From IMG/VR virus record IMGVR_UViG_3300024346_000654, positions 1 through 20,488 of that record: a DNA stretch of 20,488 nt. One strand, given 5' to 3'. Source of the DNA: a virus. Below are positions 1 to 17,425 of this stretch, one piece after another. The number at the start of each line of letters is the position of its first letter. Position 1 is the stretch's first letter. Below the pieces are notes generated by a model that worked only from the letters and a program-made list of their open reading frames with translations, searched no databases and had not been told where the DNA came from. Both the position numbers and the translations under genes were made by a program.

Positions 1-1691
1 TTAATGATATGTCGACCAGGCCTTCTTCCTATGTCATTTCTAGAGTAGAATTCACCTGTGTTAGGATCAACTTCTCCAAGTGCAGCTCTAACATAGTCAG
101 GCGTGCTAGTGCTCATTACCTGCCCAGCAGCGTCTCTTTGAACTCCTCTAAAGTTGTAGATATCTTTTCTTGTTTGGTTTGGACTTGTAAGTGGTTCAAT
201 TACATAACCATGACTACCTGCTTGTTTTGTAATCTCATCAAAGTCACTTAGTCTGCTAGCATCTGTTCCCTCAACGTCAGCATCTGGATCCATAGGATTC
301 ATACTGCGAACAACTTTCATTTGCGCTGCTTTAAGTGACAGAGCTCTACTCGGAGTTCTCGCAGGATCTACATATTGAAGAAGCTTATACTGGTCATCAA
401 CCTCAACATCCTTTCCACCGAATAATGTTGATCCAAGCCTCTGTCCTTGTTTAATGCTCCTGTCAATGAGACTCATAATCTGACCATCAGAGCGAACACT
501 TTTACCAGCCTTGTCTTTGCTTTCTTTCCCAAACAAGTATTCAAGTCCACTCATTATTTCGCTGCTTTGGTCTTTGTTGATTTGCATAACTTTGCCAGTT
601 GGGCTGTACATAACAGAACCAGCTGCGTCTCTATGGTAGACCTGGCCTCCTGTGCTCTCATCAACATAGTGAGCTAGGTCTTGCACTGGAACAAGAATGC
701 TTTCTGCGTTATCAGCGTCACCTATTCTGTATTGAGCATATCTAAATTTTTTATAATTACTTGTACCAATCTTTTGATTGATTTCTACAATATTAGATCT
801 CTGAAACGTAGCATCAACACCTCTTTTCTTAATCTTCCCTTCAAAGTCTTTAACTCTCTCAAGCTCTTGAGTCGTCAAGTCTGACTGAGAGAGAAAGTTT
901 ACATTTGATAAGGTATTGTTACCTGTTCCAAACTTAAGTAAGCCTCGTGATCCAGTATCAAACATAGCTCGATTGCCATGTAGTCTTTTTGAGAAAACAT
1001 CAGACATACCTTCAACACCGCCATAAAGCATATTAAAGCTATTTAACATAGGCTTTAATCCTCTCTGGGCTGCTTTGGAATTCATTGCACCAAAAGTTGT
1101 AGATTGAACCTGCTTTAAGAGTGCATCGTAACTTCTTTGTTTTTGCGTTCCGGTAAACATACCCGAGAAACGCTTGTTAGTCATAATATCAAGTAGAGTT
1201 TGTCTTGTAGCTTCTGCCTGTTGACCAATAAAAGTTTGACCATCTGCTCCAAATGAAAACTTTTTTAAAGGTGTGCGGCCTCCAAGGATTGGGATTCCAC
1301 TAGGAAATCCACTAACCCCCGCCGGTGTACTAGTAACAAACTTACTAGCTGGGGATATACCCCCTCCTTTCATCTTTTCACCGCTAAATCTTTCTTGGTG
1401 TTTTTCGAATAAATAAGCTAATTGTTCAGAACTTAAAGCCTGATTTACTGCATAAGCAAGAGAGTCATTGCTATTTACTTTTCTATTATTATTTCTGTAT
1501 TGCTGATTCAAGACATCGAAGAATGTCCCACCTTGAAAGTCAGAAAGCGTCTCGCCCGCAAGAGGAGAGACACTGCTGCCTGTAATCATATTACGGACAG
1601 CACTCATAGTTAGGTCTTTGCCTTTTGCTTTACCAAAAGCAAGTGCTCCTAATCCTATACTTAGCAAATTAAAAATCTTATCGCTAATCAT
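1..1691 (-). CDS. Large virion-associated protein of unknown function, C-terminus cut by window edge
   Basis: The minus-strand frame opens with ATG at 1691 and stays open to base 1, giving 563 complete codons without a stop, so the gene continues past the left edge. The protein begins MISDKIFNLLSIGLGALAFG, a short hydrophobic N-terminus, and continues as a mostly polar sequence with several Gly-rich stretches, such as a KGGG segment near residue 105. I do not recognise a family. It follows the 1631-residue protein by 8 bases and is clearly co-transcribed with it, so a role in the tail, as an internal virion protein or at the baseplate is inferred from position only. No good Shine-Dalgarno site precedes the ATG. 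The nearby sequence is GTAAGTT, which also precedes the 1631-residue gene. Composition is low in GC, like the neighbouring distal tail genes. The coding call is sure; the function is unknown. Confidence 0.85.
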   Translation of the reverse strand, partial: MISDKIFNLLSIGLGALAFGKAKGKDLTMSAVRNMITGSSVSPLAGETLSDFQGGTFFDVLNQQYRNNNRKVNSNDSLAYAVNQALSSEQLAYLFEKHQERFSGEKMKGGGISPASKFVTSTPAGVSGFPSGIPILGGRTPLKKFSFGADGQTFIGQQAEATRQTLLDIMTNKRFSGMFTGTQKQRSYDALLKQVQSTTFGAMNSKAAQRGLKPMLNSFNMLYGGVEGMSDVFSKRLHGNRAMFDTGSRGLLKFGTGNNTLSNVNFLSQSDLTTQELERVKDFEGKIKKRGVDATFQRSNIVEINQKIGTSNYKKFRYAQYRIGDADNAESILVPVQDLAHYVDESTGGQVYHRDAAGSVMYSPTGKVMQINKDQSSEIMSGLEYLFGKESKDKAGKSVRSDGQIMSLIDRSIKQGQRLGSTLFGGKDVEVDDQYKLLQYVDPARTPSRALSLKAAQMKVVRSMNPMDPDADVEGTDASRLSDFDEITKQAGSHGYVIEPLTSPNQTRKDIYNFRGVQRDAAGQVMSTSTPDYVRAALGEVDPNTGEFYSRNDIGRRPGRHII

Positions 1692-1699
1692 ATTTAAAC

Positions 1700-4600
1700 T
1701 TACATAAACGGATTAAGAGTATTGTACTCGTTAAATGTTAAGCTGACAAAGTCTTGGTTTCTATTAGGTCCTTGGATATTATAACTATTTACACCGTATG
1801 AGCTATATATCTTTGCCGCATTAGCTATTCCATTTAAACCATTTCTAGCGCTTAGGTTATTTAAATCTTGCATTGCCTTTTCATCTATGTATGGCTTTCT
1901 TGGCATATATGATGCACGACTTGGATAAATACCAAAGTCATGGTAATTCATACCTTCGCTTTCAATGTACTTTAACTTAACATCCTCTAAGTCTACCGCA
2001 GGATTAAATCCAATCCAGTCAACAGCTGGCATAGATCTATGATTAAAGAACTGAGATACTTCTTGTAGTTTTGCACTATCTACCATCTGAGGATCAGAAA
2101 CATCAAATCCTTCTTTCTGCTTTTTCACAATAAGATCTGCTGCATAATCCATACCATAGGTAGACATAGGAGCTGATCCAGATGCGCGGTTAATTGCTTC
2201 AAGGTCTTGGTTTAGGTAGAAACCTTCCATTAGTCTTGACTTATAATCCGGCAAAGCATCAATAATGTCCTGTTGCCTACCAGGATTCATTTCTCTAGCA
2301 AATCCAGCAGCAAACATAGACTCTCTGCCACCTAGAACATTCCCTAGTCTTTCTTCCGAAACATATCCTGTTCCTCCTACATAGGTATCTTGTGCAATAT
2401 TTTGATACTGATTGGCTAACTGTTCATTGCCTTGCATCCCTGCTGCTTGTGACAGTCCTGAGTACTTAACATATTTGAGTTTATCAAAATACTCTTCTGT
2501 GTCTCTTTTTTCTCTTAGACCAGGAGATTCAAAGTCAAACCCTAACCAATTATGTAATGCTGATTTAATAGCAGGCGCTATCCATCCTGCAACAGGACTA
2601 TCCCATCCTTTCATTTCTGTTCCGTAAAGTTCTCTTGATTCATATTCTTCAAGAGCATCTCGAAATGGTAATAGCTTGTTAACAGGAGACATACCAAACA
2701 TACCAATATGTTCTATTGGCTGTGCAACCCTATTTGCAATATGGGTTGTAGCTTCCCATGCTCTACCAAACATCTTACCAATAGGATTAGTCATTGCATA
2801 ATCCGCAATAGGCGAATCATCCTTTGCAAATCTACCTTCTTCTCTTATGTCCTTGTTTACATTAAAGCCATTATTGCTAACAGCACCCATAACTACGCCC
2901 CTCTCGTCAACGGCCTGACCAATACTTGCGGCAACATCAACAGTAACGCCTTGTCCTACTTGAATCTTGCTAGAGAAAGCTTTCTCGTTTCTAGTCTTAA
3001 GCTTTGCTGCTTGTTTGATTGATAAGTTAAAATCACTAATTAGAGCATCTGAATCATTTGATATTCCTGCTATGCCAAATCGACCACCATAGCCAGACAC
3101 AGTAAAGCTCATAGTAGATGCATCAACTGATGTAACATTACCACTAATAGTATCGTAAGTGCTTGGTTTGAATTGGTAAGAGTTAATGCCCTTATCACTT
3201 GCCTTATTTGCTACATTTTGTTTATGTCTGTAAAGGAATTTTTGTTCCTCTGGTGTCATTTCGCCTGCAGATCTCATAAGTTCTGCTTGGCGCAAATAAC
3301 CTTTATATTGCGGAGACTGAGGAGCAACGTCTCCTAAGATATTCATTTTATGTAGTAAAGGATAATCTTCTGGGTTTACACCTTTTAATTCTGTATGCAA
3401 GGCAACATATCCTTTGCCCGGCATTCTGTACTCACCTTCCCCATACCTAGTATTAGTGTATTGGTTTCCATACTGGAAGCTATCTGGCATCCAACTAGGC
3501 ATAGCATTTTTAATTGGATTGTATTGCTTTAAGTCATCCTTATGAAGGAATCGACGTATAGGTTCAGACACAAAGGGAACACCCAAGAATGAACCACCAC
3601 CTTGTAGATCATAGAATCTACTAGCCATATCCATGTTACGAGAGAAGGACTCTAACTCCTGTCTTTGGTCAGCAATGCCTGGTGTCCCTGTAAGATAGTT
3701 CTTTGCAGTTTTTGCATAGAAACCCACAAGGCCACCTAAAGAAGTTGTCTGTTCCCAAAAGTCTCCTAGTACTCTACCTGGAGAGTAAGGAGAATAAGGT
3801 GCAGGCATTCCTAGTCCGCCAATACTTAAATCTGGAATCTCGTCAAGTCCAGTAGATCTTTCTACAAACTTTACATTACCCTCAGAGTCTGAACGAGCCC
3901 ATTCTCCGACATGCATTAGTCTTGGCTTCTTGATAAGGTCAGCAATTGGCTGGATAAGTGGATATATAAAAGGAACTTGATCAAAAGCAGCCCCAGTAAT
4001 AGGAGCGGGTCTAGTCCAATAGTTTTCCTTTTCAAGTTTATAAGTAAAGTTTTTAAGTACCATTTCCGTTAATGGACCATGTCCGCCTGAAGCGCCCGCC
4101 TGTGCAGCTCCAGAACTTAAACGCGCAGTCAGACTAGGACGGTAATAAAGTATATCAGTTCCTTCATATCCTGTCTGACCCATTTCCCATTTCTGACCAC
4201 GCCGAACTGCCTCTAGTCTTTTGCCTTGATTTAGCTCTCTAAGCTCAGAGGGACGCTCAAGGGTACCCATACTCCCCGTCCCTACGAACCATGCCGCAGC
4301 AGCCACCGTAGAGGCATACAGAATGCTTCTAGTTCTAGGTGCAACGCGGATAGCTTCTCTTAGTCTTCCAAGTGCATTCTTTTCACTTGCAAAGATTTTG
4401 CTTTTTGCCTCTGCGTATGTATGATCAGTTACGTGTTCAGCTATCTCGTCGAAGTTAGAAACATCTGCAACCTTGCCTATTGGATTGTTTAATAGTCCGT
4501 ATTCTCCTTCCCTTTCAAGGGAAGAAATATAAGAATTCATATTCTGTTCTACAATCTCACTCTGCCTGTTAGACAGTCCTCCAGTATTGCCTCTTATTTT

Positions 4601-6642: not shown

Positions 6643-7701
6643 TTATTCGGGTTTAGTTTTAAACCTCTTTTTGAAATTTGGCTTTTGTTTTGGCATCTTA
6701 GCAGCTTCATCTCGGGCTCTTTCTTGTTTCTGGACAATCAATTCATAACCTGCTGGCATTAGTCCCATTTCCATTTGCATCGCTAATGCTTCAGCATCTG
6801 TCATGGTTGCCCCAGTAAAGTCTGAACTTTCAAATCCTCCAAGTCGATTTTCTCTGTTAATTCTAATACCTGGAACACTAACAGCAACACCATTTGAAAT
6901 TGCTACAGCATCTTTCGGTGGGATGTATTCAGTTCTACCTATCTTCTCTTCAACTTTCTTCTTGATCTCCTCTTCTTGCTTTGGCTTATTTTGCTGCTCT
7001 CTTCGGACGTCTTCTTCTTTCCTAAGTTTTGCTTCTTGTTTTTCTTGTTGCTCTCTTGCTTTCAATAGTTCCTTCAAGAAACTACCTTCTTCGGAATCTG
7101 GAGAAACATTAGTCTTTACGGGTTGCTTAGGCTCAGTCTTTTCTTCTGCAGCTTGATCTTCTGGATTATAAATTTCTAGAGGTTGTTTGAGCATTCCGTT
7201 CTCTAGCAGATATCTTTCAGCACTAGCAAATAGACTTGATATCTTGTCAAAGGATAACTTATCTAACATCTCAAATGTATAAGCTTTAAACACTAGACAT
7301 ATAACAGTATACATCTGGTATTCAACATTTGTTCTAGCAATGCTTCTGTACATATTTAACCTGAATGTGAATGCTGGGATATCAATCCTGCCATTCCTAT
7401 CCGGTATTATTCCAGAATCACTAACATACATAATAAGATCAGAAATAGTATCTATCACACCTGCGGGCAATAGATCTATTTCCGTATCACTCCAACCTGG
7501 ATCCCTAACCGTATAGTCCCTAAAGATTTTCATCTTTAGATCCCATGGAGGAATACTTTGAGCCCGTTCCGCAAAACGAATTCTCTTATATTCTCCCCAT
7601 GGGATACGAGTATAGAATACAGTCAACTTACTAGATAAGTTGTAAGGAATATCTATAACATATAAGGGAATATCTTTATGTTCAAAGATATCAATTTCCA
7701 T
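6643..7701 (-). CDS. Second tail-assembly-chaperone-like protein with charged C-terminal extension (352 aa)
   Basis: Residues about 22-98 follow the pattern of the preceding chaperone gene: a beta strand and LTVFYTRIPWGEYKRIR, a helical middle, then DLLPAGVIDTISDLIMYVSDSG, which matches that protein's DLPAGLPDLLVNMISRLSAF. Residues about 107-170 are helical with a FxAYTFExLDKLSF segment. Residues about 180-260 are rich in Lys, Glu and Gln and probably form a coiled coil or disordered arm. The C-terminus is strongly basic (KKRFKTK). It lies between the chaperone and the putative tape measure gene, where phages usually encode a longer chaperone form that binds the tape measure. Here it is a separate ATG-started gene rather than a frameshift product, because a stop (TAA) lies two codons upstream of the ATG in its own frame. 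A baseplate-hub assembly role is an alternative. The ATG is preceded by AAGAT, a poor ribosome-binding site. Confidence 0.85.
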   Translation of the reverse strand: MEIDIFEHKDIPLYVIDIPYNLSSKLTVFYTRIPWGEYKRIRFAERAQSIPPWDLKMKIFRDYTVRDPGWSDTEIDLLPAGVIDTISDLIMYVSDSGIIPDRNGRIDIPAFTFRLNMYRSIARTNVEYQMYTVICLVFKAYTFEMLDKLSFDKISSLFASAERYLLENGMLKQPLEIYNPEDQAAEEKTEPKQPVKTNVSPDSEEGSFLKELLKAREQQEKQEAKLRKEEDVRREQQNKPKQEEEIKKKVEEKIGRTEYIPPKDAVAISNGVAVSVPGIRINRENRLGGFESSDFTGATMTDAEALAMQMEMGLMPAGYELIVQKQERARDEAAKMPKQKPNFKKRFKTKPE

Positions 7702-7718
7702 TTTTTATCTTATTATGT

Positions 7719-8237
7719 TTAGAGCTCTTTGCTTAGCGAGAATGCAAGTTCGACTGGAATGAATGCACTAAGTCGGCTAATCATGTTAACAAGTAGGTCA
7801 GGAAGACCTGCAGGCAAATCAGAAATAGCTTCCTCTGAGAGCATTGGAAATACGCAACCAGCTTCAAGAAGTTCTCTGTTAAGCTTTTCTGCATCTTGTC
7901 CGGCAATCTCACGAATCATTTTCATCTCACGAACTCTTAATGGTCTGACAACAAACCACTTACCATCTTCATGAGGATAGACAATTACAGTACCATGTCG
8001 TTCTTTCATCTTCACAAGATAGGACTTGGAGCAGCCAAGCTTTTCAAGAGAGCTGTAAAGCAACTCTTTCTCATCCATTTCTTCGGCCTCTGGGCCATCA
8101 TCAGGAAGATCAGTCTCTCCAACAACAGAAGCAATAGTTTCAGCTTCTTTGGTTTCCTTTTCCTTTCTGGCCTTCTCTAGCTTTGCAGCTAACTTGATAT
8201 CTGACTCATCTTCTAGTTTATTGTCTAAATCTACCAT
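7719..8237 (-). CDS. Probable tail assembly chaperone (172 aa)
   Basis: The first 60 residues are acidic and charged with alternating Lys and Glu, probably a helix or disordered arm. Residues about 82-160 show the usual chaperone-like core: GTVIVYPHEDGKWFVVRPL strands, REMKMIREIA helix, then CVFPMLSEEAISDLPAGLP and a final helix LLVNMISRLSAF. In tailed phages such proteins lie between the tube and tape measure genes and hold the tape measure during tube polymerisation; they are usually absent from the virion. The location here, after three tube-like genes and before the very large gene, fits this well. A TAGGAGT ribosome-binding site precedes the ATG. I found no slippery heptamer at the 3' end, and the downstream chaperone-like gene has its own start. 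Family assignment rests on pattern and gene order, not on a search. Confidence 0.85.
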   Translation of the reverse strand: MVDLDNKLEDESDIKLAAKLEKARKEKETKEAETIASVVGETDLPDDGPEAEEMDEKELLYSSLEKLGCSKSYLVKMKERHGTVIVYPHEDGKWFVVRPLRVREMKMIREIAGQDAEKLNRELLEAGCVFPMLSEEAISDLPAGLPDLLVNMISRLSAFIPVELAFSLSKEL

Positions 8238-16318: not shown

Positions 16319-17425
16319 TTATTCCCTTATTATGTTAATGATAATTTTTTTGCCATTAACAATCCAAGAGTAGCCAACGTCGACTGCATCTTGATTGCCA
16401 TCCATAATATTTCTAAACAACTTAACAGTATCTGCCGTTACAGTCGCAGGATCAACATTTTTATTGAAAGTAAGAATGATTTGCTTAGTCTTCAGAGAAA
16501 TATTACTAGAGCCATACTCGGGCTCAATTTTTACTAATTGAAATTCAGTAGCAGCTATATTTATCTCTGCCTGAGTTGGAGCATCTAGTCCAATTGGGCT
16601 TTGTGAGACAGCAGTAGGTAATTCTTTAACTTGATTTACTGCAGTTGAAAAATCAACCTTATAAGTATCCGCAAGATATTCTATTGGACGTAAATTGATA
16701 GTCCAGGCATCACCTATTTTAAATGCGTCAGATGCCCCGCCAATTAACTCTAAATAGATATCCTTATCTTTGGCAATCTTATTGCGTCCAGTTAAAGGCA
16801 ACAAATCATGTGTCACAAGTGAGCTGCTTTCAAAGTACCAACTTAGTTTACACGTTGAGGAGCTTCCTGCTTTGATAACTTCAACAACAAGAACATCCTC
16901 TGTTTCACCAGTGTAATATCCACTAGCTCTTAGTATCCCTTCTCCAGTTGAAGTCAGTAGATCTTTCTCTGCATCAAATACAGTTCGAGATCCAATATAA
17001 CTCCATTCATTGTCAGGAGTAGATGAGCCACTAATTAGTAGGCGGTAATCTGTCTTCTCTTGTAAAAAAGATTTAGGTCTAACAATTAATTTGCTTTTAA
17101 CATCCGCGTCATATGCATAACTCATTTGATCTTCAAGAGTTGTACCAGAAGCGTCGCATCTGACAATTTCTAATTCTACTGGAACTTCACCTTTAAGATG
17201 TAGAGTCTCAAGTACTTTTGAATAGTTTGTATCATTTGAGAACTTATAAAGTCTTTCTTCAAATTCAATACCAGTAACAATATGATTATCAGGGCCAACT
17301 AAACTAATACTATTCTCAGCAAGAAACTCAGAGACTTCTTGATTAAAAAGAATTTCAATCTTTTCCCCTGTAGGGAAAACATTAAAGCCATCATCTGGCC
17401 AAACTGAATGAATAGTGAAAGCCAT
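16319..17425 (-). CDS. Ig-like (SbsA/Big_5-type) domain structural protein (368 aa)
   Basis: The N-terminal segment (VWPDDGFNVFPTGEKIEILFNQEV, NSISLVG, residues 8-43) and the C-terminal segment (IEPEYGSSNISLKTKQIILTFNKNVDPATVTADTVKLF, residues 300-337) both show the SbsA-type Ig pattern: Pro, a G/S-N turn, an I.I.FN strand, then the V....V..d.V.L tail. The middle (about 165-255) is another beta domain with SGYYTGETEDVLVVEVIKAG and a GDAWTINL strand. Such domains usually mediate protein-protein or surface contacts on virions. The position between capsid and connector genes suggests a neck-, collar- or head-surface protein. It starts 2 bases after the upstream stop with a GAGGAGT site, so it is translated from the same message as the 72-residue gene. 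Confidence 0.88.
   Translation of the reverse strand: MAFTIHSVWPDDGFNVFPTGEKIEILFNQEVSEFLAENSISLVGPDNHIVTGIEFEERLYKFSNDTNYSKVLETLHLKGEVPVELEIVRCDASGTTLEDQMSYAYDADVKSKLIVRPKSFLQEKTDYRLLISGSSTPDNEWSYIGSRTVFDAEKDLLTSTGEGILRASGYYTGETEDVLVVEVIKAGSSSTCKLSWYFESSSLVTHDLLPLTGRNKIAKDKDIYLELIGGASDAFKIGDAWTINLRPIEYLADTYKVDFSTAVNQVKELPTAVSQSPIGLDAPTQAEINIAATEFQLVKIEPEYGSSNISLKTKQIILTFNKNVDPATVTADTVKLFRNIMDGNQDAVDVGYSWIVNGKKIIINIIRE

Follow-up and report, generated by a model that had tools for sequence, protein, structure and literature searches.

Gene content and lineage of the window

The stretch of DNA analysed here, positions 1 to 20,488 of the IMG/VR virus record IMGVR_UViG_3300024346_000654 and hereafter called the window, is a 20.5-kb virus fragment with head, sheath, tube-like, chaperonin-slot and large-protein genes on the minus strand (Table 1). 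Its tail sheath matches known sheaths, so that the window can be assigned to a phage with a contractile tail from the ME3 lineage. Proteins of the window match Acinetobacter phage ME3, Bacillus phage KLEB27-3 and Moorella phage MTATph1, and the ME3 record itself annotates homology of the corresponding region to Bacillus phage 0305phi8-36; the source is a freshwater jumbo-type phage, a myovirus of the 0305phi8-36/ME3 lineage. When the window and the relative L010 were compared with ME3 and with the published map (PMC2147016), the gene order of the lineage was found, running from the sheath through the tube paralogues and the chaperonin-slot genes to a large virion protein and the tape-measure slot. 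Neither ORF in the chaperonin slot could be assigned to a family, the 352-aa product giving no match in Pfam or PHROG searches and the 172-aa product none above the cut-off in the same searches. Elsewhere in the window, a 368-aa ORF of the head-tail region (16319-17425, minus strand) has a Big_5 bacterial Ig-like domain at its end (44.5 bits).

Table 1. Features of the window, and an intact SNase domain found in related phages
Feature	Position	Strand	Basis
Next gene, N-terminal 563 aa, tape-measure slot; cut by the window end	3..1691	-	gene order per PMC2147016
Large virion-type protein carrying the domain, 1631 aa	1700..6595	-	ORF
Conserved helical region flanking the domain, residues 1026-1388	2432..3520	-	alignment, model, linker lengths
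Degenerate SNase-like OB domain, residues ~1147-1253 of the 1631-aa protein	2837..3157	-	AlphaFold, Foldseek, PDB profile search, alignment
352-aa ORF, tail-chaperonin slot, between tail-tube genes and the 1631-aa gene	6643..7701	-	gene order/position only
172-aa ORF, tail-chaperonin slot	7719..8237	-	gene order/position only
Tail sheath, 1023 aa	10834..13905	-	phrog_16991 tail sheath, E 1.7e-45; tblastn to ME3 and MTATph1 sheaths
Intact SNase in a large ORF of 1315-1320 aa	G001:C1:170875-171207 (L113:4558-8001; also L118:2553-6497)	-	SNase near the C-terminus

The large protein and its slot

The gene of interest encodes a 1631-aa protein and is the first long gene past the chaperonin slot. 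The published order in 0305phi8-36 is chaperonins 143/144, then 145, the tape measure 146 and the hub 147 (PMC2147016), with 145 lying between the chaperonins and the tape measure. The original prediction had spoken of a tape-measure position; the tail region stands, while for the exact slot it is more likely that the 1631-aa protein corresponds to orf145 and that the next gene, whose full-length product in the 97%-identical relative L010 has 2294 aa (L010:10908-17792), occupies the tape-measure slot. The virion location of the 1631-aa protein is deduced solely from this order of chaperonin slot, 1631-aa protein, tape-measure slot and hub; its homologues in ME3 (ME3_35) and KLEB27-3 (gp033) are annotated as structural. 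Six loci in IMG/VR encode full-length proteins that are 54-97% identical to it, and a profile search reached 225 relatives, 80 of which were kept; as single-sequence queries against viral contigs, the MTATph1 and KLEB27-3 proteins gave no matches. The helical region around the domain is intact in homologues that have no domain. In KLEB27-3 (L001:923-8076, gp031-gp033) a 211-aa ORF, gp032, divides the homologue into gp031 and gp033; gp032 has no Pfam match and is possibly an inserted mobile gene.

A nuclease fold recognised through homologues

The original prediction had read an SNase-like OB fold with lost catalytic positions into this very large protein, and the residues it named lie in the 1631-aa ORF where it had put them. 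Its pairwise evidence, however, does not rise above chance, because the 18-residue block DERGVVMGAVSNNGFNVN, starting at residue 1230, shares 5 of 18 identities with the nuclease while shuffling the region yields 5-7 of 18, and because Pfam and PDB searches with the window sequence miss SNase. The window protein is not matched by PF00565 (gathering threshold 21 bits); searches of Pfam, PHROG and PDB with the protein or the domain alone returned nothing useful and no SNase, and when the domain by itself was compared with phage records by tblastn, the matches were at chance level only. CarG-like and HsbA Pfam matches with E of 0.02-0.07 fell below the cut-off and were dismissed.

The observation is nevertheless real, since a homologue profile, a leave-clade-out HMM and AlphaFold/Foldseek agree on it. 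Within the homologous domains the PF00565 cut-off is passed twice (L080/G046 at 26.2 bits and L064/G035 at 23.8 bits), with 12.8-16.2 bits inside the same-site domain of three further homologues, and at the same place KLEB27-3 gp033 and MTATph1 CDS0026 have a far clearer SNase-like stretch, which in the latter reads IRVAGV...TVTIAYD...IRAVVY...LARELINKGIAKE. With an HMM made from 15 members, none of them in the window clade, the window domain scores 17.2 bits, while the highest score among 2000 shuffles is 9.8; the same HMM finds the window-clade member L014 at E 2.8e-5. The profile of 29 homologous domains, with no annotated SNase included, gave a significant match (best E 4.9e-7) when run against all PDB sequences (177,635 distinct), with thermonucleases in all of the best 60 listed. 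In hhalign, the homologues align with SNases of the same phages (96%, E 1.8e-9) and the window clade with the homologues (86%, E 5.2e-6); the direct comparison of the window clade with 12 intact SNases is weak when taken alone (34%, E 4e-4) and reproduces the register of the original prediction, so that the alignment of the 18-residue block stands even though its identities, taken alone, are at chance level. At the level of sequence, the link of the window domain to SNases runs through its homologues, the window copy alone being below PF00565.

The structural models point the same way. In an AlphaFold model of the domain (152 aa, 29-row alignment), with core pLDDT of about 90, the elements follow the SNase order b1-b2-b3-a1-b4-b5-a2, with strands at 1147-1158, 1163-1166, 1172-1175, 1216-1222 and 1234-1241 and helices at 1182-1189/1193-1210 (a1) and 1246-1253 (a2). 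A 363-aa model that includes the flanks, computed from 48 rows both with and without the domain, repeats this order, with block pLDDT of 91-96 across most of the domain, and sets the domain between helical segments. With both models, the best 50 Foldseek matches listed in the PDB were all staphylococcal nuclease (probability 0.97-1.00; best E 2.9e-4 and 7.1e-3). The TM-scores are moderate (0.38-0.59; by target 0.41-0.59), which is consistent with a long helical insert after strand 3 and with a third helix that seems to be missing or replaced; this C-terminal SNase helix, which ends near a conserved Trp, is not seen in the sequence, and the model is of low confidence after residue 1270. The best matches in BFVD were two large viral proteins and a COG1525 thermonuclease; the second-best viral fold match was A7KUR9, a large protein aligned over 151 internal columns (E 6.1e-5) that, by its accession series, is probably from Bacillus phage 0305phi8-36.

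It could be argued that the region is an unrelated small beta-barrel domain that resembles a nuclease by chance, as the lack of a direct PF00565 match for the window copy and the chance-level identity of the 18-mer would suggest. Such a coincidence would have to yield both a homologue profile that finds SNases only among its best 60 listed matches and two independent models whose best 50 Foldseek matches are all SNase, along with the transitive hhalign chain; it is already largely refuted, and we give it hardly any credence.

Loss of the catalytic residues

The catalytic positions were compared in 29 same-site copies and in 12 SNase domains found elsewhere in the same phage records. The window copy lacks all five: D21 is replaced by Thr (or, with the neighbouring residue, Ser), R35 by Gly, D40 by Ser, E43 by Ser and R87 by Val, which bears out the loss of D21, R35, D40 and R87 in the original prediction. 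The loss extends to the homologues, with Asp21 absent from 29/29 copies, Arg87 from 28/29 (the sole exception, L030, being alignment-uncertain), Glu43 from 27/29 and Asp40 from 24/29; the position of Arg35 holds Arg in 10 of the 29 and Lys in 7. All 12 domains elsewhere keep Asp21, Arg35, Glu43 and Arg87, and 10 of them Asp40. The conserved columns among the 29 copies are core residues G, A, V, F and N plus one acidic position, and no substitute catalytic constellation or conserved polar cluster is visible across them. With the metal ligand Asp21 and the other catalytic residues lost and no conserved polar replacements, we infer that nucleic acid is not cleaved, and predict with high confidence that the domain is catalytically inactive in the window copy and in its same-site homologues. 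A nuclease that is still active through a remodelled site might be sought in L051, L052, L053 and L090, which keep R35 and D40 together; given that Asp21 is missing everywhere, that E43 and R87 are missing nearly always and that nothing conserved takes their place, this reading is very improbable.

A domain that no longer cuts could still hold nucleic acid. The original prediction had suggested DNA binding, and one can envision a pseudo-nuclease whose OB groove holds DNA or RNA without cutting it, be it the genome of the phage inside the tail or the DNA of the host after entry. OB and SNase folds commonly bind nucleic acid, and RNA is bound by the SN domains of SND1/Tudor-SN, which are catalytically degenerate. 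RNA binding by SND1 has been reported (PMC10617981). A few of the homologues are basic (e.g., L075, with K+R 22 and D+E 13), but the window copy (K+R 11, D+E 11) and most homologues are neutral or acidic, there is no conserved basic patch, and the two phosphate-binding arginines, Arg35 and Arg87, are missing from the window clade. The suggestion of DNA binding thus found no support in the composition of the domain, and we regard nucleic-acid binding as unlikely.

Maintenance and repeated exchange of the dead domain

The dead domain is under purifying selection. Its dN/dS within the window clade is 0.04-0.22, a range as in the flanks, which argues that it is maintained and not decaying. The linker between the conserved flanks measures 30-73 aa without the domain and about 145-185 aa with it, the few rows of other linker length being incomplete flank matches. 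On a tree of the flanks with 63 rows, 33 carry the domain (L026, L028, L032 and L048 being scored as carriers by linker length alone) and 30 are without it, which takes 7 changes, at least 5 of them forced by well-supported branches. A single origin with no later loss or gain was considered and is incompatible with the tree (at least 5 changes). The domain is thus an all-or-none insertion that has been repeatedly lost or exchanged. Its sharing deep in the tree, together with the repeated changes, implies that the dead domain is old, and the existence of sister phages that are cleanly without it, ME3-like relatives among them, implies that it is dispensable over evolution.

One might take the same pattern for the passive loss of a relic, an ancestral virion nuclease having fallen out of use, since the catalytic residues are gone everywhere and absence recurs across the tree. 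A decaying sequence would not be expected to keep its open frame and fold core among homologues at about 20% identity, nor to show flank-like dN/dS and conserved G, A, V, F and N columns in its core, and we think this reading quite improbable. That related phages keep or drop a dead module at the same spot suggests instead that it is probably a building or docking block and not a DNA cutter.

Intact SNase modules in the same phages

Complete SNase domains occur in other large proteins of these phages. In the 97%-identical relative G001, a different ORF of 1320 aa, 33 kb upstream, carries a second SNase domain with its DADT, R, DAPE and FGR motifs intact (PF00565, 48.8 bits), and the same holds for G002 and G003. 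The large ORFs in L113 and L118 have an N-terminal DIETGG/DIETTG motif that recalls DEDD exonucleases, as a motif only and with no confirmation from Pfam, and MTATph1 CDS0027 has a PF00929 exonuclease match at the cut-off (24.2 bits). In the 2333-aa protein of ME3 (L115:4988-11986), which follows the tape-measure slot, the SNase adjoins a Peptidase_M23 domain, a pairing that resembles the published hub fusions of BtI1 and 0305phi8-36; the hub of BtI1, an element related to 0305phi8-36, bears an SNase domain (PMC2147016). In G040 (L117:1581-5880) the homologue of the 1631-aa protein itself is split into overlapping ORFs of 914 and 526 aa, the latter being the C-terminal part, and a catalytically complete SNase lies at residues 600-713 of the 914-aa ORF, at another site than the dead domain. 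The modules of G040 and G021 resemble each other over 203 aa, beyond the limits of the SNase domain, as a mobile module would.

The intact modules elsewhere, together with this extended similarity, support, though they do not prove, an origin of the dead domain from such a module. It is plausible that it arose from an active SNase module like those in other genes of the same phages. The ancestral nuclease proposed in the original prediction is therefore a plausible if indirect reading, favoured by the complete modules elsewhere; against it, none of the 29 aligned copies at the site is catalytically complete.

Interpretation and comparison with known systems

We consider it probable that this virion protein, encoded next to the tape-measure gene, carries an exchangeable module of the SNase fold that has long been inactive and has a structural or docking function. 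Residues ~1147-1253 descend from the staphylococcal nuclease fold, inserted between conserved helical segments of the large protein; with the catalytic residues lost across the same-site homologues, the domain would no longer cleave nucleic acid, and its fold is kept by selection, most likely to pack against or dock another protein. The structural or docking role is the most likely one by exclusion of the alternatives. The original reading of the locus was thus largely right and is partly supported overall, with significant profile matches that come through the homologues, a predicted structure with the strand and helix order of SNase and no departure from the barrel, and Asp21 gone from every copy aligned.

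The next gene (in full at L010:10908-17792; also L045:11145-18446, L073:11199-18566, L012, L013, L039, L075, L076, L079, L080, L115 and L117) has a conserved DxDGD/DxDxD motif, with an upstream R-x-P-T in some members, an arrangement that resembles RNA polymerase beta', and PF00623 (RNA_pol_Rpb1_2) matches at the motif below its threshold (17.7 bits, E 0.0043, cut-off 25.3). The product is possibly a virion RNA polymerase. In P23-45, a tape-measure fusion with a virion RNA polymerase has been described (PMC10770324); the reported polymerase of 0305phi8-36 is orf99, a different gene from that in the tape-measure slot. It can be speculated, with little confidence, that the virion pseudo-nuclease docks or regulates the intact SNase module or the RNA-polymerase-like neighbour in the same virion, the dead paralogue acting as a subunit for assembly or inhibition within an injected cargo that processes nucleic acids.

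Eukaryotes are known to have dead SNase domains. In the papers searched we found no report of a conserved dead SNase module at this site in a phage protein; SNase domains on tail proteins of the lineage were noted in 2007, and exchangeable domains on its virion proteins have been proposed (PMC2147016). Here, at one site in a widespread virion protein of jumbo phages, the SNase fold is dead in every copy seen, while further large proteins of these phages have complete modules circulating among them. The site thus lends itself to studying how imported enzyme domains turn into structural parts of virions, and it marks a deletable module in a little-understood region of the tail.

Compared with staphylococcal nuclease (PF00565; Thermonuclease 1SNC/1STN), the window domain has in common the element order of the OB fold, the IxLAGV/RLxGID strand, the DxxG...AVV...GxNxN...G block and a C-terminal helix after the barrel; it differs in that Asp21, Arg35, Asp40, Glu43 and Arg87 are all replaced, that a long extra helical insert follows strand 3 and that the third C-terminal helix is unrecognisable. 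Tudor-SN/SND1 offers a second comparison, with SN domains that are eukaryotic, tandem and RNA-binding; there, too, SNase domains have degenerated catalytically and are retained for a non-enzymatic role. Further parallels are the BtI1 hub and the 2333-aa hub-position protein of ME3, where, in the same lineage, an SNase is likewise fused into a large tail protein; however, the window domain lies in another gene, before the tape measure rather than in the hub, and the ME3 copy keeps its catalytic residues and passes PF00565.
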